Assembly: GCA_017626405.1 (NCBI GenBank)
Contig: JAGAIS010000001.1
Coordinates: 1 to 64,000, forward strand
Origin: Bacilli bacterium
Lineage (GTDB): Bacteria > Bacillota_I > Bacilli_A > RF39 > UBA660
Reading direction: 5' to 3'
Length of the DNA stretch: 64,000 nucleotides
The notes below the pieces were generated by a model that was given only the letters and a program-made list of their open reading frames with translations, made no database searches and had not been told where the DNA came from. The translations under genes and the position numbers were made by a program. This document shows, one piece after another, positions 47,290-63,597 of this stretch (position 1 is the stretch's first letter; each line of letters starts with the position of its first letter).

Positions 47290-47355
47290 ATATCTTTATG
47301 TTCTCTTCAGGGGGCGATTTCTTTCTTCCAACTGGAGAGAGCAAAATATGTTAAA
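47290..47355. repeat. Core copy (a): CTTCAGGGGG element beside cas9 relic
   Basis: The plus strand carries TCAGGGGG at 47307-47314 inside an imperfect long stem: CATAT-TTT-GTTCTCT (47290-47306) pairs with AGAGAGC-AAA-ATATG. On the minus strand the core CCCCCTGAAG is followed by the small hairpin AGAACAT / ATGCTCT and TTTTTT, like a terminator. The 14-nt block GAAGAGAACATAAA is shared with copy (e) at 61083-61096. It marks the left end of the island. Confidence 0.55.
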
Positions 47356-47440
47356 AATTATTAAATTATAATAAATTAATTTATAATTATTATTGAAGTT
47401 ATTACTATACTACTTCTAAATTTTCATTTATATTGAACCT

Positions 47441-47474
47441 AAAAAAATATCATCTTGTTAGATGATATTTTTTT
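47441..47474 (-). terminator. Terminator after AlbA_2 gene
   Basis: Perfect stem AAATATCATCT / AGATGATATTT with loop TGTT and T/A runs on both sides. Confidence 0.85.
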
Positions 47475-48987: not shown

Positions 48988-49056
48988 AACAATTGCTCCT
49001 CTCTCTTAATATTATACTATAAATACTATCTAATATAAAAACCATTATGCAACTTT

Positions 49057-49290
49057 TTATTTTTTTATTAAAGATTCACTTATTACGGTAATAAACGTAT
49101 TAATATACACATTTGCTTCTTCCATATTTAAATTATCTAAAGATTCCAGTAAATCACTTGTATTTTTTAGTGCCTCATACACTTTAGAATATTTTTTTCT
49201 TCCTTCAGGATTCATTTGTTCAATTTGTTTTAAGTAATTGCCAATAAGTTCTATAGCAAGTTTATTATTTTTATTATTATTATTATTCAC
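49057..49290 (-). CDS. Small hypothetical protein under attenuator-like leader
   Basis: A 77-residue, helical, polar protein starting with GTG; the N-terminus is a run of Asn. The SD GGAGGAG lies 6 nt upstream. The overlapping ATGTGA upstream of the GTG is a start-stop mini-ORF. A promoter at 49366-49394 and a terminator hairpin at 49313-49351 lie in its short leader. It is 69 nt upstream of the AlbA_2 gene on the same strand. Function unknown; a role in controlling the AlbA_2 gene is possible. Confidence 0.65.
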   Translation of the reverse strand: MNNNNNKNNKLAIELIGNYLKQIEQMNPEGRKKYSKVYEALKNTSDLLESLDNLNMEEANVYINTFITVISESLIKK

Positions 49291-49312
49291 ATAATCTCCT
49301 CCTATCCATAAT

Positions 49313-49351
49313 TAAAAAAGCAGTCAAAAACCTGTGAGGTCTTATACTGCT
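49313..49351 (-). terminator. Terminator-like hairpin in the leader of the 49290 gene
   Basis: On the minus strand AGCAGT and ACTGCT enclose a nested ACCT / AGGT stem, followed by TTTTTT. The promoter lies only about 15 nt upstream and the SD about 10 nt downstream, so this is a leader terminator and not the end of another gene. Confidence 0.75.
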
Positions 49352-49365
49352 TCCTTCTTTAGCAC

Positions 49366-49394
49366 ATTATAATACTTTTGTTGGTAATTGTCGA
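49366..49394 (-). promoter_or_regulatory. Promoter of the 49290 gene
   Basis: Minus-strand TCGACA (49389-49394) and TATAAT (49366-49371) with a 17-nt spacer. Confidence 0.75.
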
Positions 49395-49440
49395 TAGTTA
49401 ATCCTATCACTGTTTTATATTATTTAATAATCTCTACAAG

Positions 49441-49497
49441 GGCGACTGCTCTCTTCCTCCTGAAGAGGCGTTGAAGGGCGGCTCATTTTTTGTTAAA
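49441..49497. repeat. Core copy (b): inverted CCTCCTGAAG element
   Basis: CCTCCTGAAG at 49456-49465 (plus strand), with a small CTCTTC / GAAGAG hairpin around the core. A GAGGCG / CGGCTC hairpin and ATTTTTT follow, so the core again sits just ahead of a terminator-like structure. It is inverted relative to copies a, c, d and f. Confidence 0.5.
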
Positions 49498-49510
49498 CCC
49501 AATATTTATA

Positions 49511-49530
49511 AGGATTTGTGGGGATTTGCA
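49511..49530. repeat. 10-bp tandem direct repeat next to copy (b)
   Basis: AGGATTTGTG followed directly by GGGATTTGCA, 7 of 10 positions shared, one helical turn apart. Possible arm-type binding site. Confidence 0.45.
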
Positions 49531-49683
49531 ACTTACAACTTTCTCATAAAAACTACAAAAAAAATACAATTTTTCAGTAATAACTTTTAAACCGTAATAA
49601 TTAACAAGATGTAATCAGGACCTAGAAATAGTTCTTTTTGTTTGAAGTTATTTTAAATACTGAAAAAAAGATTGCACCGCTCT

Positions 49684-49701
49684 CTTCAGGAGAATCGAAC
49701 A
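49684..49701. repeat. Core copy (c): CTTCAGGAG element
   Basis: CTTCAGGAG at 49684-49692, same orientation as copies a, d and f. On the minus strand a GATT...AATC stem and seven T follow, which may also end the six-gene operon. Confidence 0.45.
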
Positions 49702-49734
49702 CTTGTATGTTATATGTCTGTGATAAAAGATTAC

Positions 49735-49758
49735 AACCACGTAATTACGTGGTTTTTT
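49735..49758 (+). terminator. Strong plus-strand terminator
   Basis: Perfect 20-nt palindrome AACCACGTAATTACGTGGTT followed by TTTT. Confidence 0.75.
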
Positions 49759-49800
49759 AGTATTCTTCAATTTATAAGAATTTATAAAAATTTAAATATT

Positions 49801-49824
49801 AGTATAGGTAAAAGTATAGGTAAA
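49801..49824. repeat. Perfect 12-bp tandem direct repeat
   Basis: AGTATAGGTAAA occurs twice without a gap, beside core copy (c) and just after the end of the six-gene operon. Candidate arm-type recombinase site. Confidence 0.6.
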
Positions 49825-49861
49825 TTGTTACTACCAAAAAATTATTATCTTAAGAAGTAGA

Positions 49862-50323
49862 TTATTTAAAATAATAATAATCATAATATTGTTCAATTAT
49901 ATCGTTTGCAAATGACATTAATTCAGGATCCCACTCATCAATATACTTTTCAAAATCAGTAATCTTATCTATTTTTGGATAATTAGAATCAATATTAGGA
50001 AAAGGTTGCAATAATTTGTCTAAATTAGCAGTTCCTCCTCTAACATCAATATACAAATCATAATTCATATATTTATAATAACAGCAACAATGCACTTCAG
50101 TTCCTGAATCATTAGAAATAATTACTACATCATATCCAAAACGCAAGTGAAGTACATAAGCAAATACTAGACAATATCCTGATAAAAAATTATAAGCACT
50201 GTAATAAATAGGTTTATCGTTTATAGTTGCTGCAATACATTTACTTTGAATTTGTGTTAATTCGCAAAATGAAGAATCGACATTCGAATAAAAATTATCT
50301 TTAATTAATCGATTATTACTCAT
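49862..50323 (-). CDS. Small Cys/His/Asp hydrolase-like protein (last gene of six-gene operon)
   Basis: A 153-residue protein. SGYCLVFAYVLH (Cys51), TEVHCCCYY (His78) and YIDVRGG (Asp93) give the order and spacing of a papain-like or transglutaminase-type catalytic triad, and the surrounding pattern resembles short phage and island proteins of that fold. Activity is inferred. Its ATG overlaps the TGA of the ATPase gene (ATGA, 50320-50323), so the two are translated together. It is a good candidate for the effector of the ATPase. Confidence 0.65.
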   Translation of the reverse strand: MSNNRLIKDNFYSNVDSSFCELTQIQSKCIAATINDKPIYYSAYNFLSGYCLVFAYVLHLRFGYDVVIISNDSGTEVHCCCYYKYMNYDLYIDVRGGTANLDKLLQPFPNIDSNYPKIDKITDFEKYIDEWDPELMSFANDIIEQYYDYYYFK

Positions 50324-52521
50324 AGTATGTCAAGAATTTGTTGTATAACATATTTTGGAATAGCTTTAAATTCATTTAGCGATAGTTTTGTCCAACATAT
50401 TTCATCATCATCGGAATGCATTATAGCATTTAATAATGTTTTAAACTCTTCCAAGAGATCTCTTTTTGGCGAATCAGTTATTTTCCACATATTTTGAATT
50501 GATTTTTTAAATCTGTTTGGAGAACTAGATTCACTACGCACAACATATTCTGCAATTGTCCTTAAACAACATAGTTCTTCTACTGTTAATTGAAAAGCAT
50601 TTTTTACGCTAATTGTGTTATATAAATTTTCAATTTCACTGAAAATAGTCGTTTCATCCTGTATAGATTCAAAAGTAGTATCATAAGCAAGTCCAAAATA
50701 TTCAAATATTTTTTTTATATCATCTATAAAATTATTATTCCAAGTAGTTGTTGATTCATCTTTTCGGTAATGTACCAATTTACAAATATAATTATAAACA
50801 GGCATATTATTAGGCAATTGATTAATATATTTATATAATTCATATAATTGTCTAAATGCAATGGCGCGTTGAACAATAGAGTAAGTTCCATTAGAATTTA
50901 GTAAAATATTTTTATATAAATCAATTTCTGGCAAATAGTTGTTTTCTAAGCTCATAATTTCAATTTCAGAATTATTTGTTTCAACAAGTATTAAAGGAGT
51001 TGTATTTAAAAAACCTCTAAATCCTTTTTCTACTGAATGAATAAAATCTAACTCGTGAGTAAGCAAAAACATTTTGTTAAAAGATGCATCCCCTAGACTT
51101 CTAAGTATATCAACAGATGTATATCTTCTAAAAATATCATAACTTGAAATAGGATCATCAATAATGATAACTTTATTAGCATTATTATCGTTTAAAATAA
51201 TTTGAATAAAAAAAGCAAACGCTAAAGTACTTTTTTCACCATAACTCAATGTATTAGTAACATTATTAGTTACATCTATATCATTTTTCGACTTTAAAAA
51301 TATATATTCACTATTATCATTTATTCCGTTCTTAACAACTTCACCTTTATCAACCACTATTTTATAATTTAAGCCTAATCTTTCTAAAATATGATTTATA
51401 GAATTTTCTTTGCTTCCTATTAATGAAATTAATTGATTATTTGATTCTATTACCGCTTGTTTTAAAGCTTCTAAACTAAGTATAACATTATTAATATCAT
51501 TAATAATTAATTGAATATAATTGGAATTTACATCAAAAAATTCAAATTGTTCGAATTTGTTTTCAATATCAATTTCTTCAATATTAGATATTTCATTAAA
51601 TTTTTTTAAATCTGAAATTGTTTCTTCAATAAATGTTCTATCATGATCATATTTACTCTTTACTTGTCGCATTAAACTGATTATTTCGTCTTCTTTATTT
51701 ATTTCAATAGAATCATTTATCATAGAAATTATAGTTTGAATTTCATCTTTAATGTTTAAACTGATTTTTTCGTCTTCTATCAATACAGATAATTTTTCTT
51801 TTTTTGCAACTTTATCACTAAATAATTTATCATGAATAGAAGAAACACTATTAATACCATTGATTTGTCCTTTAACATCATCTGAAATATTATCTATATT
51901 ATTTTTACACCAGGGACAATAATCCATATTTAAATTTTTATATAAATAAAGACCTTGATACCACCAATTTTTATGTTGTTCATTATTAATATCAAATATT
52001 TCATTATATGATAAGGGAAGATTGCCTTGAAGAAAAGTAGTTGCAAATCTTTTTTTAGCATCTGAAACATTTCCAGTTGTGGAAAAATCGAACGCTTTAT
52101 CTACTTCATTAAAAACAGGATTTAGAGAATCAATTTTAGATAACAACTGATTAATTGTATCCTTAATAATATTTATATTATTTATTTGTTCCTCTAGTTC
52201 TGGACTATTAAAAATTATTTTAGACTGATTCTTTTGTAATGAATCATTTAAATAAATAAAATTATTTATAAATTTATCATCAAATACTCGCAAATCATTT
52301 TGATTATATATATTATAAATCTCATTAATTTGCTCATCGTTTTGCAGTTCAAAATTTTTAGATAAGTTTTCATTTATTAACAAATCTTTCAAAGTAGATT
52401 TTCCTCTTCCATTAGATCCATAAAATAAAATTATTTTATTATTCGGATCTAACACACTATTTTTAAGTTGTTCTGAAATTTCAAGTTTCTTCATTCCTTT
52501 TTGATTTTTTGCAATTATCAT
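50320..52521 (-). CDS. Zinc-hook AAA ATPase, RloC/PrrC-like
   Basis: A 733-residue SMC-like ATPase. Walker A is GSNGRGKST (35-43). A CPWC zinc-hook-like pair lies at 202-205 within coiled coil, and the signature LSYGEKS, Walker B IIIDDPISSYD and the TH-loop LLTHELDF follow in the second half. After these, an Arg-x-x-x-Glu at 557-561 and a His at 584 recall the anticodon-nuclease triad of PrrC/RloC, though the spacing to His is shorter. If real, it would cut tRNA after phage-induced damage. A strong GGAGGTG SD sets the start. Confidence 0.8.
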   Translation of the reverse strand: MIIAKNQKGMKKLEISEQLKNSVLDPNNKIILFYGSNGRGKSTLKDLLINENLSKNFELQNDEQINEIYNIYNQNDLRVFDDKFINNFIYLNDSLQKNQSKIIFNSPELEEQINNINIIKDTINQLLSKIDSLNPVFNEVDKAFDFSTTGNVSDAKKRFATTFLQGNLPLSYNEIFDINNEQHKNWWYQGLYLYKNLNMDYCPWCKNNIDNISDDVKGQINGINSVSSIHDKLFSDKVAKKEKLSVLIEDEKISLNIKDEIQTIISMINDSIEINKEDEIISLMRQVKSKYDHDRTFIEETISDLKKFNEISNIEEIDIENKFEQFEFFDVNSNYIQLIINDINNVILSLEALKQAVIESNNQLISLIGSKENSINHILERLGLNYKIVVDKGEVVKNGINDNSEYIFLKSKNDIDVTNNVTNTLSYGEKSTLAFAFFIQIILNDNNANKVIIIDDPISSYDIFRRYTSVDILRSLGDASFNKMFLLTHELDFIHSVEKGFRGFLNTTPLILVETNNSEIEIMSLENNYLPEIDLYKNILLNSNGTYSIVQRAIAFRQLYELYKYINQLPNNMPVYNYICKLVHYRKDESTTTWNNNFIDDIKKIFEYFGLAYDTTFESIQDETTIFSEIENLYNTISVKNAFQLTVEELCCLRTIAEYVVRSESSSPNRFKKSIQNMWKITDSPKRDLLEEFKTLLNAIMHSDDDEICWTKLSLNEFKAIPKYVIQQILDIL

Positions 52522-52550
52522 GTTACACCTCCAAAGTTGTTAATAATTAT

Positions 52551-52859
52551 TTAGCAGTATAAATCTATATCGTCATGATCTTCACCATCATAATGATTAT
52601 AATAGTGAAATCCATCTTCTATTTTTTTGTTACAAACTCCACATACATCCCAGTATCCAAAATTTGATGAATCAGTATCTGAATACATTACTGTAACCAC
52701 TTTACATTTGCAAAATTGTTCATTATCTGGTTTATTGTTCACTATCTTACTTTTTAATTCATCAATATTCATTTCTTTATTCAATAAATTATTAGAATCA
52801 TTGTTAATTACTAATTTTTCTTTAGATTTTACATCAATAGTTATATTAGAATTTTCCAT
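52551..52859 (-). CDS. Small zinc-ribbon protein (fourth gene of operon)
   Basis: A 102-residue protein. The N-terminal half is polar and probably disordered. The C-terminal half has CKC, CGVC and a final Cys with His residues, a likely zinc site. The ATG at 52857-52859 starts 1 nt after the stop of the DUF2075 gene, and its SD lies inside that gene, so translation is coupled. No family recognised; an adaptor role is possible. Confidence 0.65.
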   Translation of the reverse strand: MENSNITIDVKSKEKLVINNDSNNLLNKEMNIDELKSKIVNNKPDNEQFCKCKVVTVMYSDTDSSNFGYWDVCGVCNKKIEDGFHYYNHYDGEDHDDIDLYC

Positions 52860-52860
52860 A

Positions 52861-54732
52861 TTATTCACCTCGCATATATTTATTCAATTCTTTATCAACA
52901 CAATAAACATAACAACCTTTCATTCCTCTAGTCATTAATGTTCTATAAGTATTTTTTATAATAGAATCAGCTATTTTATTTGCTACTTCTTGTCCTTGTT
53001 CTTTAGCTGTCTTATTTATACCTCTCAAAGATTGATCGGTTTTTGCTCTCTTAGAATAATCAGTAACTATATGATCATTTTCATATCTCATATCATCACC
53101 AATTATAACTCCAACATAATCAAATTCTAATCCTTGACATGTATGAATACATCCAGCTTCGTTAACTGATTGAGGATCAATTGCCCATGTAGTTGAATTA
53201 CCTAAGTTCCAACTCATTTCAAAATCGTACTCTGGTATTATTATATCATATACATCAGATTTGTTTTTACCTTCACTAATCCAATTCCAACAATATCCTG
53301 CTACTATTCTAGATTTGTTATTGATAGAATTTTTTTCTTCAATTGCTTTTCTCATTTCATTTGGATCATCAAAAACTTTAAAATCATAATCAAATCCATC
53401 TATATCTAAATTAGCAGTTTCTTTAATTTCTAATAAATTATTTAACCATGCAATATAACCGTCTGAACCATTACATCTAAATTGGCTATCTAATTCGTAA
53501 GTATATATACCTGCTCCTAATTCATCAGCATACTTCTTAATCATATCTTCACTACCAATATCTTTAAGAGTTACCTTTTGATTTTCATCTATAAAGAATA
53601 TTGAGAAATTAGAAGCGTTAATAATTTCTTTAATTTGGTTTTCTCCTTTATTTTGAAACATTCCAGATTTGGCATTTAATCTATGAGCTTCATCTACTAT
53701 TAAAACATCTAGTTTATTACTTTCTTCATCTACAAAGTTTCCAGAACCTTGAAATAAATGATTAATATATGTTTGAGTAAAGTTTCCTCGTAATTTTGCA
53801 GAAAACACACTTCTAGGAGCTGAATTTTTTGTAACATAGAAGCAAGTCATATTTCTTCTATTAAATTCAACTAATAAGTTAATAGCTAATACGGATTTAC
53901 CAGTTCCTGGTCCACCTCTTACTATCATTACATTCTTTTTATTACTAGATACTGTATCAATTGCATTACTTAATGCATATTCATATATAATTTTTTGTTC
54001 ATCAATCATATAGAATTCTTTATTACCTTGTAACATTTGAGTTAATGAATCTTGTAACATTTTAGAAGGTCTAATTCTACCATGATCTATTTCATAAAGA
54101 ATACTTCCATCATCGCCAGTCTCTATATATCTTTTAATAAAGTCTCTTAATTTAATAACATCATTATGTCCAAATAAAGGTGCTTTATCTGTATATTCTT
54201 TATAATTATTAGATAATAAAGTATCATCATCTTCAAAATAATAATTATGAAGATATGCACATGGTACTACATTAATATCTTTTAATTGAACTGACTCATT
54301 ATAATCTTTAATTAAATTAGCATAAGTCATGGCTTGATATGATGGATGATTGACATCTCTTAATCCTCCGCCCGTATAAGTATTTACTTTATAAATTCCA
54401 TCTAGATTAGCTACTTCAGTAGCTTTATCCCATTGCTTTAATTCAACAATAACAACATTAGACTTATTCTTATTAAATCCTGACATCATAAAATCTATTC
54501 TACATCCAGTAGGAGGAATATTATACTCAATTGCTATACCGGTATTATTCGGAATTTCATTATCACTTAAAACACCACGCATATATTGCATAGAATTCTT
54601 CCATGAATTAAATTCGGACGCACTAGGTTTTCTTTTAATTACTTCTATATATTTATTTCTAATCTTATCAGCAATTATTCCTAAATCTACATCATTGATA
54701 AAACCAGATTTTATTCCTTCATATACCAACAT
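52861..54732 (-). CDS. PD-(D/E)XK nuclease-DUF2075 helicase protein
   Basis: A 623-residue protein. The N-terminal domain has RIDFMMSG (Asp80) and VVIVELKQW (Glu97-x-Lys99), the core of a PD-(D/E)XK nuclease. Then comes the DUF2075 helicase domain with GGPGTGKSVLA, DEAHRLN, DENQKV, and late TCQGLEFDYVGVIIGDD and a conserved RTLMTRGMKG motif. DUF2075 proteins are Schlafen-related SF1-type helicases often found in defence islands. It follows the Ntn-like gene by 9 nt. Confidence 0.82.
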   Translation of the reverse strand: MLVYEGIKSGFINDVDLGIIADKIRNKYIEVIKRKPSASEFNSWKNSMQYMRGVLSDNEIPNNTGIAIEYNIPPTGCRIDFMMSGFNKNKSNVVIVELKQWDKATEVANLDGIYKVNTYTGGGLRDVNHPSYQAMTYANLIKDYNESVQLKDINVVPCAYLHNYYFEDDDTLLSNNYKEYTDKAPLFGHNDVIKLRDFIKRYIETGDDGSILYEIDHGRIRPSKMLQDSLTQMLQGNKEFYMIDEQKIIYEYALSNAIDTVSSNKKNVMIVRGGPGTGKSVLAINLLVEFNRRNMTCFYVTKNSAPRSVFSAKLRGNFTQTYINHLFQGSGNFVDEESNKLDVLIVDEAHRLNAKSGMFQNKGENQIKEIINASNFSIFFIDENQKVTLKDIGSEDMIKKYADELGAGIYTYELDSQFRCNGSDGYIAWLNNLLEIKETANLDIDGFDYDFKVFDDPNEMRKAIEEKNSINNKSRIVAGYCWNWISEGKNKSDVYDIIIPEYDFEMSWNLGNSTTWAIDPQSVNEAGCIHTCQGLEFDYVGVIIGDDMRYENDHIVTDYSKRAKTDQSLRGINKTAKEQGQEVANKIADSIIKNTYRTLMTRGMKGCYVYCVDKELNKYMRGE

Positions 54733-54741
54733 TTACTTCAC

Positions 54742-55596
54742 CTACGTTTCATTATCATATATCATTTTTGGTAATCTTAAATGACTATAATTATCATTAT
54801 TTAAATGAGCACAATATTCAACTAAACATCCTATTTGATAAATATACATTTTATAATTCGAATTTGATTCTTCAACAAGAAATGAATATCCCCCATCAAA
54901 AACACTATCATCAAAATTTATCATAGAACTATTAGTTTCTAATTGTTTAGGTTTAGAAATAGTTGCAGAATAATAACTTTGATATAAGAATTCAGTTTCT
55001 TTACCAATACATTCTATAACTTTTTCTCCTACTGTTTCATCTATATTTAATTTTAGTACTCTTTTAAAAGATTCCGAATCTATTATTTCTTCTACTAAAT
55101 CTTTCTTCTCATCACCTGTAATTAATTCGCAAACATTTTCACTATAATTTCTTATTTCATCACTTAGTCTTAATTTTTGAAATTCTTCAAAACATTTATA
55201 AACACCTATCCACGAAGAATCAACATTATTAATTTTATTATCTTTTATTTCATATATATTGTTTTCTTTAACTGAGCATACTATAAAGTCTGTTCTATTA
55301 TTTTTTTCAATATTTATTTTTAACGAAATATCACATATTTTTTTTAAATCAGTTATATTTTTATCGTCAATTTCTTTTAATAACAAATTGAAGTCTTCTA
55401 AAACTCCGGCCGAACAGACACAAATATTTTTATCTATAATAACATTTTTAATTATTCCCAAACAGCAAATATCTCTATAATTTTTATTACCAATTTCTCT
55501 TATCAACATTTGTTCATCATTTGGGCTAACATATAATTTGTCATCAGCCATCACTTTTATCTTATTCTTATATTTTTTTGCAACAATAAAACTCAT
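54742..55596 (-). CDS. Ntn-hydrolase (proteasome/HslV)-like protein
   Basis: A 284-residue protein. The start MSFIVAKK, with IKVMADDKLY at residues 13-21 and later VCSAGVLEDFNLLLKEI, resembles the fold of proteasome beta / HslV-type Ntn hydrolases. There Ser2 would be the N-terminal nucleophile once Met is removed, and an Asp (18 or 19) takes the place of the AADxR Asp. The match is by eye and weak in the C-terminal half, which is unrelated. It lies 7 nt after the MazG-like gene and 9 nt before the DUF2075 gene. Confidence 0.5.
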   Translation of the reverse strand: MSFIVAKKYKNKIKVMADDKLYVSPNDEQMLIREIGNKNYRDICCLGIIKNVIIDKNICVCSAGVLEDFNLLLKEIDDKNITDLKKICDISLKINIEKNNRTDFIVCSVKENNIYEIKDNKINNVDSSWIGVYKCFEEFQKLRLSDEIRNYSENVCELITGDEKKDLVEEIIDSESFKRVLKLNIDETVGEKVIECIGKETEFLYQSYYSATISKPKQLETNSSMINFDDSVFDGGYSFLVEESNSNYKMYIYQIGCLVEYCAHLNNDNYSHLRLPKMIYDNET

Positions 55597-55603
55597 ATTA
55601 CAC

Positions 55604-55918
55604 CTAAAGTTTATTATACTTTATACTCTTTCCTTTAGCTTTTTCAACAGGATATTTCTTAGCTGTCTTTTCCATTTTATCTAAAACAATTTGTTTTGGA
55701 TCAACTCCTAACTTATTAGCCATTTGAATACAGTAATTTAAAACATCAGCAAGTTCTTCTTTTACTTCTTCTAAATCATACTCGTTATTCCATTGAAAAC
55801 ATTCTAATAATTCCCCTGCTTCTATTGAAATTGATTTAGCTAAATTTTCTGGAGAATGAAATTGATCCCAATCTCTTTCTTCATTAAACTTTTCTATTTT
55901 TTCTTGTAAATCTTTCAT
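55604..55918 (-). CDS. MazG-like nucleotide pyrophosphohydrolase
   Basis: A 104-residue helical enzyme of the MazG/RS21-C6 group that hydrolyses NTPs or dNTPs to the monophosphates. It shows the metal-binding pattern ISIEAGELLECF, then EEVKEELADVLNYCIQMA. It is the first gene of the six-gene operon. The ATG at 55916-55918 has GAGGTGTATC upstream, and an extended -10 (TGGTAAAAT) lies about 20 nt further. MazG-like proteins beside DUF2075 proteins are a recurring pair in defence islands. Nucleotide depletion is a likely role but is not shown. Confidence 0.85.
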   Translation of the reverse strand: MKDLQEKIEKFNEERDWDQFHSPENLAKSISIEAGELLECFQWNNEYDLEEVKEELADVLNYCIQMANKLGVDPKQIVLDKMEKTAKKYPVEKAKGKSIKYNKL

Positions 55919-56000
55919 AAGATACACCTCTACTAATATTTTACCATAATTACGTATAATTTTAATGTTTGAATACTATTTTTTATTTTTTTAGTCTTTT

Positions 56001-56022
56001 TGGTAGTTGAATGGTAGTTGAG
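56001..56022. repeat. 11-bp tandem direct repeat
   Basis: TGGTAGTTGAA and TGGTAGTTGAG, without gap. The GGTxGTTGA theme recurs at 56198-56220 and, inverted, at 61172-61192. Confidence 0.6.
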
Positions 56023-56069
56023 AGTAAAATAAAACATCACAAGAAGCCCGTAAAATCAACAAAAATGGA

Positions 56070-56100
56070 GCCTTCCGACTCCTTCAGGGGGCGAGTTTTA
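56070..56100. repeat. Core copy (d): CTTCAGGGGG element
   Basis: TCAGGGGG at 56084-56091. On the minus strand CCCCCTGAAG is followed by the hairpin GGAG / CTCC and ATTTTT, the same order (core, hairpin, T run) as in copy (f). It separates blocks 2 and 3. Confidence 0.55.
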
Positions 56101-56130
56101 AACCATACTTCTCAGTCTTACAGCCTACTT

Positions 56131-56180
56131 TTAATTCACGGTAATTACCGCTGAATACCGCTAATTACCGCGGATTACCG
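56131..56180. repeat. Five 10-bp tandem repeats
   Basis: ttaattcacg, gtaattaccg, ctgaataccg, ctaattaccg and cggattaccg follow each other without gaps. The last four share ATTACCG or ATACCG. Helical phasing suggests a cooperative protein-binding site. Confidence 0.65.
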
Positions 56181-56197
56181 CTCACTACTCCTATAAA

Positions 56198-56220
56198 AGT
56201 GGTTGAATGGGTGGTTGAAG
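56198..56220. repeat. 12-bp-spaced GTGGTTGAA pair
   Basis: GTGGTTGAAT and GTGGTTGAAG, with starts 12 nt apart. Similar units are found at 56001-56022 and 61172-61192. Confidence 0.55.
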
Positions 56221-56226
56221 AATAAT

Positions 56227-56257
56227 GTTACCTAAACCCAATTCTTGGTTACCTAAA
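56227..56257. repeat. GTTACCTAAA direct repeats, 21 nt apart
   Basis: Two identical 10-mers two helical turns apart, 23 nt upstream of the excisionase-like start. A close relative GGTACCTAAAAT lies near copy (e). They may be operator or arm sites. Confidence 0.55.
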
Positions 56258-56279
56258 ATAATTAGAAAGGAAATAAAAA

Positions 56280-56495
56280 ATGAAAGAAATAATTACTTAT
56301 GAAGAATTAAAAGAAATAACATCTAAAGCATGGTTAACAGTAAAAGAAATTATGAAAATAATATGCGTAAGTAAAAAAGAAGCATATCGATTAAAAAAAA
56401 TAATAAAAGAAGATTTAGAAAATAAAGGATATTATATTCCAAACGGACTATTACCTACACAAGAAGTTTTAGATTATTTAAAAATAAGCAAATAA
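56280..56495 (+). CDS. Excisionase-like small HTH protein
   Basis: A 71-residue protein with LTVKEIMKIICVSKKEAYRLKKII in the middle, a winged-HTH pattern as in phage and ICE excisionases and small DNA-binding proteins near integrases. The SD is AGAAAGG. It starts right after the dense direct repeats beside core copy (d), where a recombination directionality factor would be expected. No integrase is present nearby, so it could be a leftover or act on an integrase elsewhere. Confidence 0.6.
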   Translation: MKEIITYEELKEITSKAWLTVKEIMKIICVSKKEAYRLKKIIKEDLENKGYYIPNGLLPTQEVLDYLKISK

Positions 56496-56516
56496 TTATT
56501 TGCTTATTTTTTATTA
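56481..56516. terminator. Bidirectional terminator between xis-like and DUF6119-like genes
   Basis: Stem AATAAGCAAAT / ATTTGCTTATT with A/T runs on both sides. Confidence 0.8.
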
Positions 56517-58057
56517 AATATATTTGCTAATTTGACATTATAACCTTTTCTTTTTAAACCATCAATAGCATAACGTATAGAAACTTTACTGAAAAAAGGA
56601 ATAGATGGTCTTTTTTCATTTTTATTAGTTATGATTCCCATAATTACTGTATATTTTTTCGCATTAAAATCATTATCAAAAATTTCTTTTTTAAATTTAG
56701 AATTAACCTTCTTTCTAAAAGATTCATCTAATAACATTTCAGCGGATACACTAGCTTGATTAAATAAATGACTTAAATAACTTGAACCACCATTTTTCTT
56801 TATATGAATCAATTCATTATTAGATGAAAATACATCACATACTTCAATAGAGCTTTTTCCCATACCATCTAATCTAACTGTTTCTTTATCCATTAATATA
56901 GAATCCTTTAAATTAGTATTTAATAATGAATTATATTCATCTTCTCTACTATTATTGTTGTCAGGAAAATCGTAATCAACTAATAAAATATTTTCATAAT
57001 ATTCATTAGTTTCACCAACGAAATCATTGTCTAAAACATACCATTTACCAAAATTTAAACAATACATTTTGTTATCTAATTCAACTTCTCCAATTAAACA
57101 ATTATATAAACTCCAATCATATATTGAGTCGTCACTATCTGTTGAAATAGCATATACCTTTTTTCTTTTTAGTGAATCAACTTTCATACTATCTTGTAAT
57201 TTAAACTGAGAAACTATGTCTTTTATTTCTATATCATCTTTTCCTACATCATTTTTATTATATTTAAACTCTCTAACATTTTCCCATTCTATTAACTCAG
57301 GTACAGCAGCCCATATTTTTTCGTATTCCTCATTTTTTAACATTTCAATCATTTTTTCATCTAATTTTTCTTTTTTGCTTTTTTCTTTTACTTCTTTTAT
57401 ATTATCAAGCCAAGAAAAATTATCTTTATATTTATCTAGTTTATATCTTTTATAACAATTAACTAAAAATTCATCAATATTACTATAATTAACTGGAACA
57501 GTTACTGTTAATAAGTCTCCACCAACAATTGTATTCTTATTAAAAAGATCATCTTCACACTTAGCAGTAGCTTTTCGAATAAAATCATTAAAAATATCAA
57601 AACCAAACTCATTAATATTTGTTTTTTTAGGAACTTGTTCATTTCTAGTTCTATGATCTCCACCATAATTTGATGAAACTAATTGTCTAAACTCATCTAC
57701 CTTAACAGTATTTAACAATACTTTTATACCAAATTGTTCTTCAATAACCTCTTCATTCAATAACGATTTACCACTTCCAAATGGTATAGCAAATAAGATT
57801 TTCTTTCCGTCTATTTCTAATTCATGAATTGAAATAACTTTAGAATTTGATACATTAATATGATCTACATAATCTAATCCATAATATGATCTAATCCATT
57901 TAGGAGTATTAATAATTGTAGGTGTATAATATGTTTTACTTGTATCTGAAGAGCATAGCTCACATAAATTCAAATTATCCTTAAATAATTCTTCTTTATC
58001 AGTTCCATCTTTAATTAAAAATATAGATACCTTATTATTAATTTCTCTTTTTGCCAT
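56504..58057 (-). CDS. DUF6119 / TIGR04141-like sporadic protein
   Basis: A 517-residue protein. Start by ATG at 58055-58057 with GGGAGGAAT upstream. The pattern (N-terminal VSIFLIKDG, a middle with PFGSGKSLL and VVSSNYGGDHR-type segments, and a late GGSSYLSHLFNQASVSAEML) resembles the sporadically distributed TIGR04141/DUF6119 family known from defence and mobile regions. Function is not established. It is next to the R-M genes. The family call is from memory and is not verified. Confidence 0.6.
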   Translation of the reverse strand: MAKREINNKVSIFLIKDGTDKEELFKDNLNLCELCSSDTSKTYYTPTIINTPKWIRSYYGLDYVDHINVSNSKVISIHELEIDGKKILFAIPFGSGKSLLNEEVIEEQFGIKVLLNTVKVDEFRQLVSSNYGGDHRTRNEQVPKKTNINEFGFDIFNDFIRKATAKCEDDLFNKNTIVGGDLLTVTVPVNYSNIDEFLVNCYKRYKLDKYKDNFSWLDNIKEVKEKSKKEKLDEKMIEMLKNEEYEKIWAAVPELIEWENVREFKYNKNDVGKDDIEIKDIVSQFKLQDSMKVDSLKRKKVYAISTDSDDSIYDWSLYNCLIGEVELDNKMYCLNFGKWYVLDNDFVGETNEYYENILLVDYDFPDNNNSREDEYNSLLNTNLKDSILMDKETVRLDGMGKSSIEVCDVFSSNNELIHIKKNGGSSYLSHLFNQASVSAEMLLDESFRKKVNSKFKKEIFDNDFNAKKYTVIMGIITNKNEKRPSIPFFSKVSIRYAIDGLKRKGYNVKLANIFNKK

Positions 58058-58074
58058 AAAATATTCCTCCCAAC

Positions 58075-58117
58075 AAAAAATGAGCACATTTCATTATTAA
58101 AAATGAAATATACTCAT
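58075..58117 (-). terminator. Hairpin between 58138 gene and DUF6119-like gene
   Basis: Minus-strand stem ATGAG / CTCAT plus ATTTCATT / AATGAAAT, followed by TTTTTT. It ends the 58138 gene transcript and sits in the leader of the next gene, where it could act as an attenuator. Confidence 0.75.
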
Positions 58118-58137
58118 ACTTTATATACATTATACTA

Positions 58138-58395
58138 CTAATCATATTTTTTATCATTAAATATTTTTATAGAATCCATAACAAATTGACTCATAAATTC
58201 ATTTTCAAGCAAATCTTCTATTTCAGGTATTATTATTTGATAATAATTAAGATCTATCTTGAAAAAATTAGATTTACTTAAATTTTCATCAATTATTAAC
58301 ACCTCTATATTAATTAGATCATAATGATATATTTTTTTCAAGATCAATAATATGTCTATATATGGACCAATTATACATTTTTTGATAAAATACAA
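58138..58395 (-). CDS. Hypothetical small protein
   Basis: An 85-residue Ile/Leu/Asp-rich protein, divergent from the endonuclease gene with only 16 nt between the frames. There is no convincing SD for the long start; a later start is possible. No family recognised. Its position in front of a restriction gene is where controller or antitoxin-like genes lie, but nothing in it looks like an HTH. Confidence 0.45.
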   Translation of the reverse strand: MYFIKKCIIGPYIDILLILKKIYHYDLINIEVLIIDENLSKSNFFKIDLNYYQIIIPEIEDLLENEFMSQFVMDSIKIFNDKKYD

Positions 58396-58411
58396 CTAGA
58401 GGTGATAAATT

Positions 58412-59122
58412 TTGAAGTTAACTACAGAAATAAGCACACAAATAATAAACAAGATAGAAGAAGCAAAAAATTTAGAAGAAGTTGCTAATATATTAAAAGA
58501 ATATAGTAAATATGAACTAAAAGGAGCTCAACTAGGACGTGCTTTTGAAAAAATGTTTATTCAAGATGAAGGATTTAGCCCATATATAACAATGGAAGAA
58601 TTAGAAAGATATCATCATTCTTTTCATACTACAAACGGTGGAGATTGGTGCAGATCTGACTCAAGTTACTTAGGGAAAAAATATACAATTGCAAGAGAAC
58701 TTCGAGGAGGAAAAATCTTTGCTATAAAAACAGATGGATTTAATAAAAAAAGAAAAATAAATCAAAGCATTCGTTCTGATATATTAAAAGAAATTCAAGG
58801 AAAAAGATGTGCAATACTTGATATCAATACTAACATAGAATGCGATCATAAAGATGGTATGAAAGATGACTGGAGATTAAATAATAAAGATAACCAAAGA
58901 TTAGAAGATTTCCAACCATTAACAAAAACAGCAAACGATGCAAAAAGACAACATTGTAAAAAATGTTTAGAAACAGGTAAAAGATATGACGCTAAAAGAT
59001 TAGGATATAAAGAATCATATATATTAGGTGATTCAAACTCTAAAACTTGTGTAGGTTGTTACTGGTATGATCCTATTAAATTTAATCAAAAAATATCTGA
59101 AAATTTCGATAAAAAAGCATAA
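58412..59122 (+). CDS. ICEA/NlaIII-like HNH restriction endonuclease
   Basis: A 236-residue protein starting with TTG after AGAGGTGAT. The C-terminal HNH region has IECDHKDGMKDD, then RLEDFQPLTKTANDAKRQHC and CKKC...CVGCYWYDP, the pattern of the ICEA1/NlaIII family. NlaIII cuts CATG, but the target of this enzyme is not deduced. It converges on the C5 methyltransferase gene with a shared terminator, forming a type II R-M system. NlaIII itself pairs with an adenine methylase, so the partner differs. Confidence 0.85.
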   Translation: MKLTTEISTQIINKIEEAKNLEEVANILKEYSKYELKGAQLGRAFEKMFIQDEGFSPYITMEELERYHHSFHTTNGGDWCRSDSSYLGKKYTIARELRGGKIFAIKTDGFNKKRKINQSIRSDILKEIQGKRCAILDINTNIECDHKDGMKDDWRLNNKDNQRLEDFQPLTKTANDAKRQHCKKCLETGKRYDAKRLGYKESYILGDSNSKTCVGCYWYDPIKFNQKISENFDKKA

Positions 59123-59124
59123 TA

Positions 59125-59153
59125 AAAAACAGTTAATATATTTAACTGTTTTT
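59125..59153. terminator. Bidirectional terminator between R and M genes
   Basis: Stem AAAAACAGTTAA / TTAACTGTTTTT with A and T runs on both sides. Confidence 0.85.
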
Positions 59154-60410
59154 TTCATTCTCGATCATTTTTTCAACAGATAATCCTATTGCTTTTCCTA
59201 AATAACATGGAACAGCATTTCCAATTTGAGTTAACTGCCACTTCTTTGAGCCTTGAAATACAAAATCATCTGGAAAAGATTGAAGTCGTGCCATTTCTCG
59301 TGCTGTTAAAACTCTTGGTAATTTAGGATGAATATTTACACCACCATGATTTTCTTTTACAGTACATGATGGTTTATTCCATGGACACTTTTTCCAAGAA
59401 TCAGAATAATTTTTATATAAACTTTCTCCTTCCTTAACAGCCATCAGTTTCTTTTGCATATCTTCTGAATGAGTTGTTGGAACATGATTAAACAACGGAT
59501 CTGGTTTCATATTCATCAAATCAGATATTGCATCTTTAGTTGTTATATATTTATCAGGAGAAAGAATTGGTTGAGGATGGTAATTATCAACTCCTATTCT
59601 ATTACCTATGAATATAACTCTTCTTCGAGTTTGTGGAGTATAATAATCAGCTGCATTCAATACTGTTACATTTATTTTATAACCTATATTTTCAAAATCA
59701 TTTATGATTTTTTCTTCAACTTTACCACCAAGCATAGATCTTAACCCAGGAACATTTTCCATAACTACAACTTTTGGTCTTAAATGATCAACAATTTCAA
59801 GCATATCTAAATATAAAGTATTTCTTTTGTCAGTAACAATTCTATTACCTGCCATACTAAATCCTTGGCAAGGAAAACCACCAACTATTAAATCTATATT
59901 TTGTCCCCATACACTGTCATACAAATGACGTTTAACATCAGTTTCTCTAATATCTCTACTTTCAACATTTTCATTAAAACCTTTTTTATCAACAAAATTA
60001 TATTTATAAGTTGAAACAGCTTGATCCATTATTTCAACGCTACCTATTGGGTTCCATCCAGCCATTACTAAACCACAAGATAATCCTCCAGCACCGGAAA
60101 ATAAATCAATAAAATTCAAACCATTTCTTTCATTCTTATTTTTCCAGCCATCTCGTTTCCATTCTTTAGATATATCAATAAAATTAACTTTTTTTGAATC
60201 AACATTTACGTAATCAACATCATCAAAAATGGATTCTTTACAAATTCCATTTTTATATTTTTCATACCAATCATTAAAATCATCTACAGATATTCTATAT
60301 CTATTGTTTATTTTAGAAGCTTTTAAACTTCCTTCAGCAATTTGTCTTCGAATCGTTTTTACACTTTTATTTGTTTTTTTTGAAACATCTTCTACTGTTA
60401 ATATTTCCAT
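59142..60410 (-). CDS. DNA (cytosine-5) methyltransferase with N-terminal HTH
   Basis: A 422-residue enzyme. Residues 1-55 form an excisionase/MerR-like HTH (LTVEDVSKKTNKSVKTIRRQI). The methyltransferase core follows: FIDLFSGAGGLS (motif I), GGFPCQGFS with the catalytic Cys (IV), MENVPGL (VI), TRRRVIFIG (VIII) and QIGNAVP (X). The start ATG is at 60408-60410 with AAGGTGG upstream; the longer frame is unlikely. A perfect TTGACT-17-TATAAT promoter overlaps an 8-bp inverted repeat, so the HTH probably represses its own gene, as in M.SsoII. Confidence 0.92.
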   Translation of the reverse strand: MEILTVEDVSKKTNKSVKTIRRQIAEGSLKASKINNRYRISVDDFNDWYEKYKNGICKESIFDDVDYVNVDSKKVNFIDISKEWKRDGWKNKNERNGLNFIDLFSGAGGLSCGLVMAGWNPIGSVEIMDQAVSTYKYNFVDKKGFNENVESRDIRETDVKRHLYDSVWGQNIDLIVGGFPCQGFSMAGNRIVTDKRNTLYLDMLEIVDHLRPKVVVMENVPGLRSMLGGKVEEKIINDFENIGYKINVTVLNAADYYTPQTRRRVIFIGNRIGVDNYHPQPILSPDKYITTKDAISDLMNMKPDPLFNHVPTTHSEDMQKKLMAVKEGESLYKNYSDSWKKCPWNKPSCTVKENHGGVNIHPKLPRVLTAREMARLQSFPDDFVFQGSKKWQLTQIGNAVPCYLGKAIGLSVEKMIENEKNS

Positions 60411-60421
60411 ATATACCACCT

Positions 60422-60468
60422 TGTCCACTATACATGATAATTATACATGAGAAGTGGACACAAGTCAA
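60422..60468 (-). promoter_or_regulatory. Methyltransferase promoter with inverted-repeat operator
   Basis: Minus-strand TTGACT (60463-60468) and TATAAT (60440-60445) with a 17-nt spacer. TGTCCACT (60422-60429) and AGTGGACA (60453-60460) are perfect inverted 8-mers, one in the spacer and one after the start point. TATACATGA is also directly repeated inside the interval. Confidence 0.8.
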
Positions 60469-60479
60469 CATATTTTTAC

Positions 60480-61028
60480 TTATCTAAATCTTTTACAATA
60501 GTTATTTGCTTCTTCAAAAAATGTATTACCATCAATATTATAATTACATAATTTAATCTTTTGAACAACTTCTCCTCTATTAGTTTTTATATGAAATTTA
60601 TATTTATTTACATTTAAATTCGTAGGCCCATATACTACTAAAAATACATTTTTTGACTCTAACCCAAGCATATTAATTGGAAAAGAAGTTGATTTTAGAT
60701 CATATTCAGAAGTTATAGTCTTATTTTTAGTAGTTTGACCTTCAATTAGTTTTCTAGGAGATTTAATAAAGGTAAATTCATTATCTATTGAAATTTCATT
60801 TATAGAAATTGGCAATCTAGACTTATTAATAAAATCAATATTAAAGATATAAAAATTTCCATTTTCTATCATTGCACTAGTAAAATTATTTATAACCATT
60901 TTTAAATTTTTTTTATTCATTTTATAATTAGAAATTAAAGTTATAATAGATATTGCTAAAGCTAAAAAAGAAATTAGTATTGTTATAATTTCTCTATTAT
61001 TATAAATAAAACATATAAATTTATTCAT
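60480..61028 (-). CDS. Hypothetical membrane-anchored protein
   Basis: A 182-residue protein with an N-terminal membrane span at about 12-34 and a ~140-residue soluble beta-rich domain (ISINEISIDNEF, SFPINMLGLE). The ATG at 61026-61028 has GGTGATATTT upstream. It lies upstream of the methyltransferase but has a separate promoter region in between. Function unknown. It is the last gene before the right end of the island. Confidence 0.65.
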   Translation of the reverse strand: MNKFICFIYNNREIITILISFLALAISIITLISNYKMNKKNLKMVINNFTSAMIENGNFYIFNIDFINKSRLPISINEISIDNEFTFIKSPRKLIEGQTTKNKTITSEYDLKSTSFPINMLGLESKNVFLVVYGPTNLNVNKYKFHIKTNRGEVVQKIKLCNYNIDGNTFFEEANNYCKRFR

Positions 61029-61082
61029 AAATATCACCAAATAAATTATATCATTTTAAAAATTAATTATAAACGCTATTTG

Positions 61083-61135
61083 AAGAGAACATAAAAACAT
61101 CCTCTTCCCCCTGAAGACCGGCATTTAAAGTCGTT
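61083..61135. repeat. Core copy (e): inverted CCCCCTGAAG element
   Basis: CCCCCTGA at 61107-61114 on the plus strand, preceded by the hairpin GAAGAG / CTCTTC. It shares GAAGAGAACATAAA (61083-61096) with copy (a). It is inverted relative to copy (f), 185 nt away. Confidence 0.55.
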
Positions 61136-61171
61136 TTATTTAATATTTTAGGTACCCATTAGATTCATTTC

Positions 61172-61192
61172 TAACCACTTTTCAACCACCCA
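61172..61192. repeat. Inverted GTGGTTGAA pair
   Basis: TAACCACTTTT and CAACCACCCAA, the reverse complement of the GTGGTTGAA theme at 56001-56022 and 56198-56220. Confidence 0.5.
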
Positions 61193-61210
61193 AATTATAA
61201 GTACTCAGCG

Positions 61211-61270
61211 ATACTAATTGAGACAAATTGAGTAAAAAACGGGAATAAACGGGAATAAAAAGGAATAAAA
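61211..61270. repeat. 10-bp tandem repeats
   Basis: AATTGAG at 61216-61222 and 61226-61232. Then gggaataaac, gggaataaaa and aggaataaaa follow without gaps at 61241-61270. The last unit merges with the T run of the RNA terminator. Confidence 0.6.
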
Positions 61271-61378
61271 AAAAAATGCTAGGTCTCTCGACCTAGCTTC
61301 AGGGGGTTTTGGTTGATATACCTTAACATTGTTAAAATCGTTAAGGTTTATCGACATAATACTTTCGTACTATGTCTA
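61268..61378 (-). ncRNA. Candidate structured small RNA downstream of recG (RNA-f)
   Basis: About 110 nt with its own consensus promoter. It has hairpin 1 (GACATAGTAC GAAA GTATTATGTC), hairpin 2 (GATAAACCTTAAC / GTTAAGGTATATC, one mismatch), a single-stranded stretch CAACCAAAACCCCCTGAAG, and the terminator hairpin CTAGGTC GAGA GACCTAG plus a T10 run. The C-rich stretch is core copy (f) (61299-61306 on the plus strand). C-rich loops in Bacillota sRNAs usually pair with SD sequences. A tracrRNA remnant is a second possibility, given the cas9 relic. Confidence 0.65.
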
Positions 61379-61383
61379 TAATA

Positions 61384-61412
61384 ATATTAAAGGAAATTCA
61401 TCAATTTGTCAA
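61384..61412 (-). promoter_or_regulatory. Promoter of RNA-f
   Basis: Perfect TTGACA (61407-61412), 17-nt spacer, TAATAT (61384-61389) on the minus strand, starting right after the recG stop. Confidence 0.85.
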
Positions 61413-61420
61413 TGAAATTA

Positions 61421-63424
61421 TTAATCTGTGTTTATTAATTTATCTAATATTTGTTTATAGTATGAATAGTTATTAAAACTATTTTCTATATTGTCTTTAA
61501 TAAATTCTTCTGTATCTTCTTTGCATTGTAGGAGTATTTTATAATCAGTTCTTAAGTCTGCTATTTTAAATATCATATCTCCTGATTGTCTTACTCCAAA
61601 TAGATCTCCAGATCCTCTAATTTCAAAATCTTTTTCTGAGATATAGAATCCATCATTGCTACTTTCCATAACACTCAATCTTTCTGTATCTTTATCAGAT
61701 ATTAGTATACATTTTGATTCAATACTATTTCTTCCAACTCTTCCTCTTAATTGATGTAGAGTTGCTAAACCAAATCTCTCTGCATTGAATATACACATCA
61801 TAGTAGCATTTTTAACATCTACTCCTACTTCAATTACTGTTGTTGATATTAATACTTCTATTTTACCTTCTTTAAAATTGTTCATAACTGTATCTTTTTC
61901 AACTTGTTTCATTTTACCATGTAGTAATCCAATAGAATGTTTATTTTTAAATTTTTCTTTTAGAGTATCTTCTATTTTCTTTAAATCATTTAATTCATTA
62001 GTTTCTCCATCTTCTGATTCAATTAATGGAGCTACTACATAAGACTGGTATCCATTAAGTAATTCTTGTTCTATTTTTTCTACTACAGTGTTAATTTCTT
62101 TAAAGTTATATACTTTTGTGTGAATTTCTTTTCTCCCTTTAGGTTTTTCTTTGATAATGGATATATCCATATCTCCATATATAGTTAAAGCATATGTTCT
62201 TGGAATAGGGGTTGCTGACATATATAGAACATCTACATGCATACCTTTATTTTGTAATGATTTTCTTTGATTAACTCCAAATCTATGTTGTTCATCGGTA
62301 ATAACTAGTCCTAGATTATTAAATTCGACATTATCCTCTAACATAGCATGAGTACCAATTAGTAAATCTATATCGCCATTTTTTAATCTTTCTAATATAG
62401 AGTTTTTTTCAGATTTTTTTAGTGATCCAACTAATAGTTCTACTTTTAAACCAAGATTACCAAACAAACTCATAAAGTTATCATAGTGTTGGCAAGCTAA
62501 TACTTCAGTTGGTGCTAGTAATGCACTTTGATATCCTGCTGAATGATTTAATAATATTGAAATAAAAGAAACAATAGTTTTACCTGATCCAACATCACCT
62601 AGAATTAATCTATTCATTCTTTTAAGATTTCTAAAATCTTTTACAATATCATTAATGGCATTTAATTGATCACTCGTTAATTCATATGGCAATTCATCAA
62701 TTATTTCTTTTACCGTATCATCACTTATATCTTTTATAACAAAGTCATCAAATATTTGATTCTTATATTTAATTAAATTAATCTTAAACATAAATTCAAA
62801 TAATTCTTCATATTTTAATTTTAACTTTGCCTGTTTAAGATTATTTAAGTTTGTAGGATTATGTATTTCTCTTATAGAATTACTAGTATTCATTAGATTA
62901 TATTTTTCACTTATATATTCAGGAACTATTTCATCTATAAATTCCATTGTTGATAACACATTAGTTATTAACTTATGAATTTGACTAGAAGATATTCCAC
63001 TTGCTGAATGATATACAGGTTCTACTTCAATTGAGTTCATAAATTTAAATTTTATATCTGCTGCCATAAATTGATTTTTAAGTTTATTATATTTACCTAT
63101 TAGAGTAATATATCTATTAATTTTCAAATTTGGTTTATAAAAAGCTCGATTAAAAATGACTACATTGATAGGTATATTATTTGCTTCTACCATGAAAGAT
63201 AAACGATTAAAATTTCTTTTAATATATGATACTTTTGGTTCTGAAATTATCTTAGCAGGAACTACTATAACATCACTATCATTACATTTTGTTATATCGC
63301 TAGGCTTATATATGTTGTAGCGGTATGGGTAAAATCTCATTAAATCATTTACCGTATTTATAGATAATTTATTGAGTATATTTAATGTTTTAGGACCTAT
63401 ACCTTTAATATCTGATAAATTCAT
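61421..63424 (-). CDS. recG: ATP-dependent DNA helicase RecG
   Basis: RecG reverses stalled replication forks and processes branched DNA. The 667-residue protein has the wedge/OB region at the N-terminus, then Walker A GDVGSGKT, DEQHRFG (DExH), MSATPIPRT, LLHGKMKQ, the motif V region TTVIEVGVD, and QLRGRVGR. The length is normal (about 680). A GGAGGAAAAATT SD lies upstream. It is flanked on both sides by structured RNA genes with their own promoters. Confidence 0.97.
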   Translation of the reverse strand: MNLSDIKGIGPKTLNILNKLSINTVNDLMRFYPYRYNIYKPSDITKCNDSDVIVVPAKIISEPKVSYIKRNFNRLSFMVEANNIPINVVIFNRAFYKPNLKINRYITLIGKYNKLKNQFMAADIKFKFMNSIEVEPVYHSASGISSSQIHKLITNVLSTMEFIDEIVPEYISEKYNLMNTSNSIREIHNPTNLNNLKQAKLKLKYEELFEFMFKINLIKYKNQIFDDFVIKDISDDTVKEIIDELPYELTSDQLNAINDIVKDFRNLKRMNRLILGDVGSGKTIVSFISILLNHSAGYQSALLAPTEVLACQHYDNFMSLFGNLGLKVELLVGSLKKSEKNSILERLKNGDIDLLIGTHAMLEDNVEFNNLGLVITDEQHRFGVNQRKSLQNKGMHVDVLYMSATPIPRTYALTIYGDMDISIIKEKPKGRKEIHTKVYNFKEINTVVEKIEQELLNGYQSYVVAPLIESEDGETNELNDLKKIEDTLKEKFKNKHSIGLLHGKMKQVEKDTVMNNFKEGKIEVLISTTVIEVGVDVKNATMMCIFNAERFGLATLHQLRGRVGRNSIESKCILISDKDTERLSVMESSNDGFYISEKDFEIRGSGDLFGVRQSGDMIFKIADLRTDYKILLQCKEDTEEFIKDNIENSFNNYSYYKQILDKLINTD

Positions 63425-63464
63425 AATTTTTCCTCCAAAAGTAGTTATTTTTTTAAAAAAAGTG

Positions 63465-63493
63465 TTGACAAAAATACCTTAATCGATTAGTAT
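63465..63493 (+). promoter_or_regulatory. Promoter of RNA-g
   Basis: TTGACA (63465-63470), 17-nt spacer, TAGTAT (63488-63493), plus strand, divergent from recG. Confidence 0.8.
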
Positions 63494-63499
63494 ATTAAA

Positions 63500-63597
63500 T
63501 ACCAATTCACTTACAGGCGAATTGGTGCTAGTATCACACTAGCCAACCCCTTTTTATTCTTTGGAGCAGTTCTCAGGGGGACTGCTTCTTTTTTTAT
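63500..63597 (+). ncRNA. Candidate structured small RNA upstream of recG (RNA-g)
   Basis: About 98 nt: hairpin CCAATTC / GAATTGG, hairpin GCTAGT / ACTAGC, then CAACCCCTTTTTATTCTTTGG, and the terminator hairpin AGCAGT / ACTGCT with the 10-nt loop TCTCAGGGGG and a T run. CCCC in the linker can pair with GGGG in the loop. There is no plus-strand gene downstream, so it is an RNA gene and not a leader. Its loop TCAGGGGG is exactly complementary to CCCCCTGA in RNA-f. Confidence 0.65.

Follow-up and report, generated by a model that had tools for sequence, protein, structure and literature searches.

Why should two small RNAs on either side of recG carry motifs that are exact complements of each other? 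The question arises in a 64,000-nt stretch of DNA (the window; GenBank assembly GCA_017626405.1, contig JAGAIS010000001.1, positions 1 to 64,000) from a Bacilli bacterium of the lineage RF39; UBA660, which is part of a 1.245-Mb genome (G000). We call the RNAs RNA-f and RNA-g, and recG (61421..63424, minus strand; placed from its open reading frame (ORF) and by tblastn) lies between them. We think it quite probable that RNA-f is a trans-acting regulator of the antitoxin type, that RNA-g is a sponge mimicking its targets, and that CCCCCTGAAG, at the 3' end of RNA-f, independently acts as an integration core. The sequences show the conservation and covariation of the RNAs, the motif that they share, the peptide loci that carry it, the integrases and the swapping of terminators.

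RNA-f (61268..61378, minus strand) has two covarying hairpins, an unpaired linker and a terminator, and we recognized it by its fold, covariation and distribution in the family. The predicted fold contains three hairpins (-39.8 kcal/mol, z -10.6), and the promoter, TTGACA-17-TAATAT, is at 61384..61412 on the minus strand, with TTGACA aligned in 8 genomes. The linker, AACCAAAACCCCCUGAAG (61297..61314, minus strand), is invariant in the genus and is the proposed antisense seed; its 3' part is the CCCCCTGAAG of the integration core. Unpaired CCCCCUGA is also invariant and would cost 0.26 kcal/mol to open, and ACCCCCTG in the linker does not change across 38 diverse sequences. The bases 5' of the seed do vary (ACCAAAA, ACCGAA, ACCAAA, TATAAAA, CTAACAAA). 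RNA-f was found in 8 genomes of the window's genus, where the stretch TCAACCAAAACCCCCTGAAG is invariant, and in 191 of 243 family genomes, representing 128 of 148 genera. Compensatory changes filled 92 double-change cells, compared with 28 in shuffles.

RNA-g (63500..63597, plus strand) was identified on the same three grounds and also has three predicted hairpins (-32.2 kcal/mol, z -4.4). Its promoter, TTGACA-17-TAGTAT (63465..63493, plus strand), is conserved among the genomes of the genus, 8 of 9 of which have RNA-g. It is present in 215 of the 243 family genomes and in none of 216 genomes from other families of the class, and its compensatory changes filled 166 double-change cells versus 38 when shuffled. 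Sequence comparison and covariation outline a near-invariant hairpin and unpaired linker, CUAGUAUCACACUAGYCRACCCCUUUUUAUUCUU, at 63528..63561 on the plus strand. One genome neighborhood has two tandem copies of RNA-g, 155 nt apart (L224:5080-5268). The original prediction that both RNAs are structured, with three hairpins, terminators and promoters of this form at these positions, was borne out, and the covariation and family-wide presence add that both are conserved. With its own promoter and terminator and its conserved, covarying structure, each of them is an independent small RNA gene with a predicted transcript.

The complementarity itself is exact, as had been proposed: TCAGGGGG in RNA-g (63573-63580, plus strand) is the complement of CCCCCTGA in RNA-f (61299-61306, minus strand). 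Both motifs had been placed in single-stranded regions. This is right for RNA-f, but of the RNA-g motif CAGG alone is wholly free, and the other bases of the 8-mer belong to the upper end of the terminator stem. The RNA-g motif would cost 5.9 kcal/mol to open against a duplex with RNA-f of -15.2, for a net gain of about -9. The motif at the terminator tip, UCAGGGGG (63573..63580, plus strand), is the proposed target mimic. It was kept in about 70-83% of sequences, 53 of 65 distinct ones in one set and 85 of 119 in another, and is often lengthened to CUUCAGGGGG, the full 10-nt complement of RNA-f; elsewhere plain loops replace it, including a plain tetraloop in some genera that retain RNA-f.

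The alternative that survives best, although we still consider it unlikely, is that this loop is conserved for a pseudoknot with RNA-g's own linker CCCCU and not for RNA-f. A CCCCU/AGGGG pairing would be worth about -9.7 kcal/mol, and the linker is invariant. However, the linker stays invariant where the loop has been lost, RNA-f and not the linker is matched by the UC that precedes AGGGGG and by the fifth G, and many loops extend to the 10-nt form. Across the sampled genera the second hairpin and C-rich linker hardly vary, including where the loop has disappeared, which suggests that RNA-g has a further function.

What else could RNA-f pair with? A pattern search of the window's genome found 7 occurrences of CCCCCTGA, of which 4 belong to RNA-f or to copies of its core and 1 lies antisense to the RNA-g loop. 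The other two are UUCAGGGGG in the sense direction, 5' of a start codon: GAUUCAGGGGGAUUUUUUAUG precedes a membrane-protein ORF and UUUUCAGGGGGUAGUAGAAAGAAGUGAUGUUAUG precedes MKNNTLIKLLFIIIFILLYIIII. In other words, sense UCAGGGGG occurs outside the RNA-g loop only at the Shine-Dalgarno (SD) sequence of the membrane-protein ORF and in the 5' untranslated region (5'UTR) of MKNNTLIKLLFIIIFILLYIIII, a 23-aa hydrophobic peptide. The first of these ORFs, at G000 C2:44395, combines a single predicted membrane stretch with a long C-terminal part.

A search of the family for UUCAGGGGG before an AUG gave 112 rows, which include RNA-f's own complement, RNA-g loops and double starts for one site, compared with 41 for a reversed control pattern. 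At least 30 of the rows lead to hydrophobic ORFs of 15-40 aa (counted by inspection, paralogues included), where about 5 would be expected from a background of 4.4%. Among the loci listed, UUCAGGGGG is 26-59 nt before the AUG of hydrophobic peptides of 21-35 aa in at least 13 genera, and peptides such as MSKKDFLIVILLIIIILLIIYR and MNKLFILNILLILVIIVIVIFN are present in several copies per genome. Pairing with RNA-f outside the seed was better than in all shuffles (0 of 1000 as good), RNA-f reaches 13-16 continuous pairs in several targets, and the target in G005, of the window's genus, pairs best with its own RNA-f (-37.5, versus -29.8 to -34.6). Judged by these matches, RNA-f has the complementarity to a putative toxin mRNA, at or near its initiation region, that characterizes a type I antitoxin.

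The original prediction had also suggested that both RNAs may pair with SD- or anti-SD-like targets. One target in this genome does overlap an SD, but the wider set consists of 5'UTRs of small hydrophobic peptides. A related and rather improbable explanation is that UUCAGGGGG in these 5'UTRs is itself a ribosome standby site or SD element, which RNA-f matches by chance. GGGGG can pair weakly with the anti-SD, and at G000 C2 the motif is the SD. Yet the peptide loci have another SD closer to the start, the extended complementarity to the RNA-f linker exceeds every shuffle, and CCCCCTGA is nearly exclusive to RNA-f within the genome.

The peptide loci have a recurring layout. In most of them a stretch of the 5'UTR reappears on the other strand, downstream of the ORF and often next to a TATAAT-like box, and there is a hairpin 3' of the stop codon. 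In most loci the direct repeats in the 5'UTR ranked first or close to first against 200 shuffles, while promoters and the terminator were judged by eye. The repeats are weak in some loci, and at the G000 locus 47 of 200 shuffles were as good, which is not significant alone. In G020 the multi-copy peptide loci (L521-L525) have an RNA-f-like complement in the 3'UTR, read from a promoter-like sequence on the opposite strand. No match to the peptides was found among Pfam and NCBIfam models, so their likeness to the par/Fst system is one of layout and not of family membership. We rejected assigning them to Fst or Ldr, as there was no profile match and no PXXXG motif or tryptophan signature.

Could the two RNAs instead be a dedicated antisense or sponge pair, with the peptide matches incidental? 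We consider this improbable, although complementarity of 8-10 nt is retained in most genera, and the RNA-g stem retains U.G pairs (54 of 62) at positions where C-G would be more stable, which looks like selection on the sequence itself. The RNA-f seed is invariant where the RNA-g loop has been lost, the peptide 5'UTRs are enriched and match past the seed, and the loop is not associated with the presence of RNA-f. We rejected a coupling of loop to RNA-f on the counts: the loop is kept in 69 of 84 genomes with RNA-f and in 16 of 18 without it. The RNA-f 8-mer, which the original proposal would have tested for compensatory changes along with its partner, hardly varies. Since losses of the loop do not follow losses of RNA-f, the two do not form an obligate pair, and the comparison indicates that RNA-g is not the main partner of RNA-f. 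The original proposal of RNA-g as a sponge or antisense for RNA-f thus fails as an exclusive pairing, while a sponge role is plausible because the loop reproduces the sequence apparently targeted by RNA-f.

In the mechanism that we favor, the RNA-f linker AACCAAAACCCCCUGAAG would pair through CCCCCUGAA, often with an extension, with UUCAGGGGG in the 5'UTRs of peptide mRNAs; UUCAGGGG-type sites are the proposed pairing sites at the peptide loci. The targets would encode the 21-35 aa hydrophobic peptides of par-like type I toxin-antitoxin loci, and pairing would most likely block their translation or mark their mRNAs for decay. RNA-f would then be an extra antitoxin common to several dispersed toxin loci. 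RNA-g, displaying the target sequence at its terminator tip, would most likely be a target-mimic sponge for RNA-f and may have some other function through its invariant C-rich linker. Transcription, the actual pairing, the sign of the regulation, the sponge action and toxicity are all steps that we infer from the sequences.

Several findings weigh against this mechanism. For RNA-g, 12-25% of sequences lack the loop, which occurs independently of RNA-f and would cost about 6 kcal/mol to open. For the targets, only 70 of 243 genomes yielded any row in the search, several targets match RNA-f by a 9-10 nt seed alone, those at G162 C13/C26 have one seed mismatch, and G020 has the motif in the 3'UTR and not the 5'UTR. 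The targets were gathered by the motif itself, so their count describes only peptide loci that carry it; the inspection and paralogues behind the count of hydrophobic ORFs are a further caution. Finally, many peptide loci seem to carry a cis antisense RNA of their own, which may leave RNA-f a secondary role.

The seed of RNA-f has a second association, with integration, that the original prediction did not include. Using tblastn with a 409-aa tyrosine integrase from G004, which has an arm-binding domain and ends about 100 nt from the core, we located integrase genes at 21 RNA-f sites. Nearly all lie no more than 300 nt from the core, and wherever RNA-f is present they are on its side of recG. 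Beyond the core the sequence changes. Across 2145 site pairs the identity of the RNA-f body and that of the 30 nt after the core were uncorrelated (r=0.06), near-identical bodies have different terminators, and identical terminators are found behind different bodies. The window's terminator (61278..61297, minus strand) is such an exchangeable module, with the same hairpin 3' of the core in other genera (L158, L177). Several loci have further core copies with their own hairpins downstream, and many contigs stop shortly past RNA-f. Direct repeats, typically 11 nt apart, were downstream in 31 of 89 sites compared with 5% in shuffles, a pattern that integrase arm sites would be predicted to show. 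With an adjacent integrase, a core repeated at the element ends and a change of sequence beyond it, CCCCCTGAAG serves many tyrosine-integrase elements as their attachment core.

When viral contigs were scanned with a 15-mer, 46 matches appeared, mostly expected by chance given the size of the collection, but IMG/VR contig IMGVR_UViG_3300031555_005889 (L332) has a true RNA-f core beside an integrase and is likely the edge of a provirus. We also saw the decayed 3' end of an integrase beside the core CTTCAGGGGG, away from RNA-f, near position 497 of L088 (G004 C39). It is very unlikely that CCCCCTGAAG is kept purely as an attachment site and that RNA-f has no regulatory role, and we dropped this idea given the peptide 5'UTR matches: clear as the integrases and terminator swapping are, hosts do not maintain attachment sites on behalf of invaders, RNA-f comes with a promoter of its own and covarying hairpins and is vertically syntenic with recG whether or not an integrase is present, and UUCAGGGGG in the peptide 5'UTRs and RNA-g would be left unexplained.

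On our reading, each integrating element would bring its own terminator, and therefore the seed would be kept and RNA-f rebuilt after insertion. Because the seed doubles as integration core, elements could insert and leave RNA-f intact, and mobile elements may therefore be selected to preserve the antitoxin. The scheme taken as a whole, with one trans RNA as the common antitoxin of many par-like toxin loci, a second RNA titrating it and the integrase core constraining the elements, is tentative, and we think it somewhat more apt to fail than to hold. If it is true, mobile elements could alter the level of antitoxin by exchanging terminators. The favored mechanism also suggests a trans layer above par-like type I loci, which are usually seen as governed by their own cis antisense RNA.

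In the window, RNA-f opens onto a 14-kb island (47305..61306) of restriction-modification and other defence-type genes, reaching to a distal core. Three extra copies of CCCCCTGAAG partition it. One is inverted (61107..61116, plus strand), and the other two are followed by a terminator hairpin: at 56082..56091 (minus strand), flanked by CAACCAC and CAACTACC repeats that come in pairs 11-12 nt apart and resemble the arm sites of an integrase, and at the distal end (47305..47314, minus strand). The genes include an ICEA-like endonuclease, a cytosine methylase, DUF6119, a MazG-like gene, a Schlafen-type helicase and AAA genes; no integrase was found within the island. An integration hotspot whose core is the seed of a putative regulatory RNA, with exchangeable terminators brought by the elements, may help explain the defence-gene islands beside recG in these genomes.

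recG lies between both RNAs in 73 of the 77 loci that show both cores. Neither RNA matched an Rfam family at the gathering score, and permissive thresholds gave nothing credible, the best for RNA-g being sbrA at 19.1 bits against a gathering score of 45. In the survey of conservation, the named matches (at least 118 among those listed) were mostly titled as uncultured Bacilli, Tenericutes or Erysipelotrichaceae. These are thus two RNA families without an Rfam entry in a large uncultured gut lineage, one of which now has specific candidate mRNA partners. Elsewhere in the window, Rfam identified a ribosomal protein L10 leader at 690-810.

How does this compare with known systems? Integration is known at the 3' ends of tRNA and tmRNA genes, and there, as at RNA-f, a short core is at the gene's 3' end and the element supplies the 3' part that is replaced. 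Here, however, the target would be a base-pairing small RNA, the core is its seed and the terminator is the part that is swapped. The par/Fst layout has convergent RNAs, direct repeats in the 5'UTR and a bidirectional terminator (PMC7472228). Much like it, most of the peptide loci seem to combine a short hydrophobic ORF with direct repeats common to the toxin 5'UTR and the convergent downstream strand and with a hairpin after the stop that possibly serves both strands; unlike it, they have no PXXXG or tryptophan signature, and an extra trans RNA, RNA-f, apparently pairs with the 5'UTR. In ZorO-OrzO, ShoB-OhsC and TisB-IstR, an antitoxin RNA from a separate gene pairs with the toxin mRNA; OrzO needs about 15 continuous pairs, and OrzO and IstR pair upstream of the SD (PMC3919570, PMC11264685). 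RNA-f would similarly be a separate small RNA complementary to a putative toxin mRNA, but it is unlinked to its targets, a single RNA would serve several scattered loci, and its gene is where elements integrate. For RNA-g the nearest parallel is RosA, a sponge of RoxS in Bacillus subtilis (PMC8216469). The sequences are unrelated, and the proposed mimic in RNA-g is in the terminator tip, but in both cases a dedicated small RNA is proposed to titrate another, C-rich small RNA.
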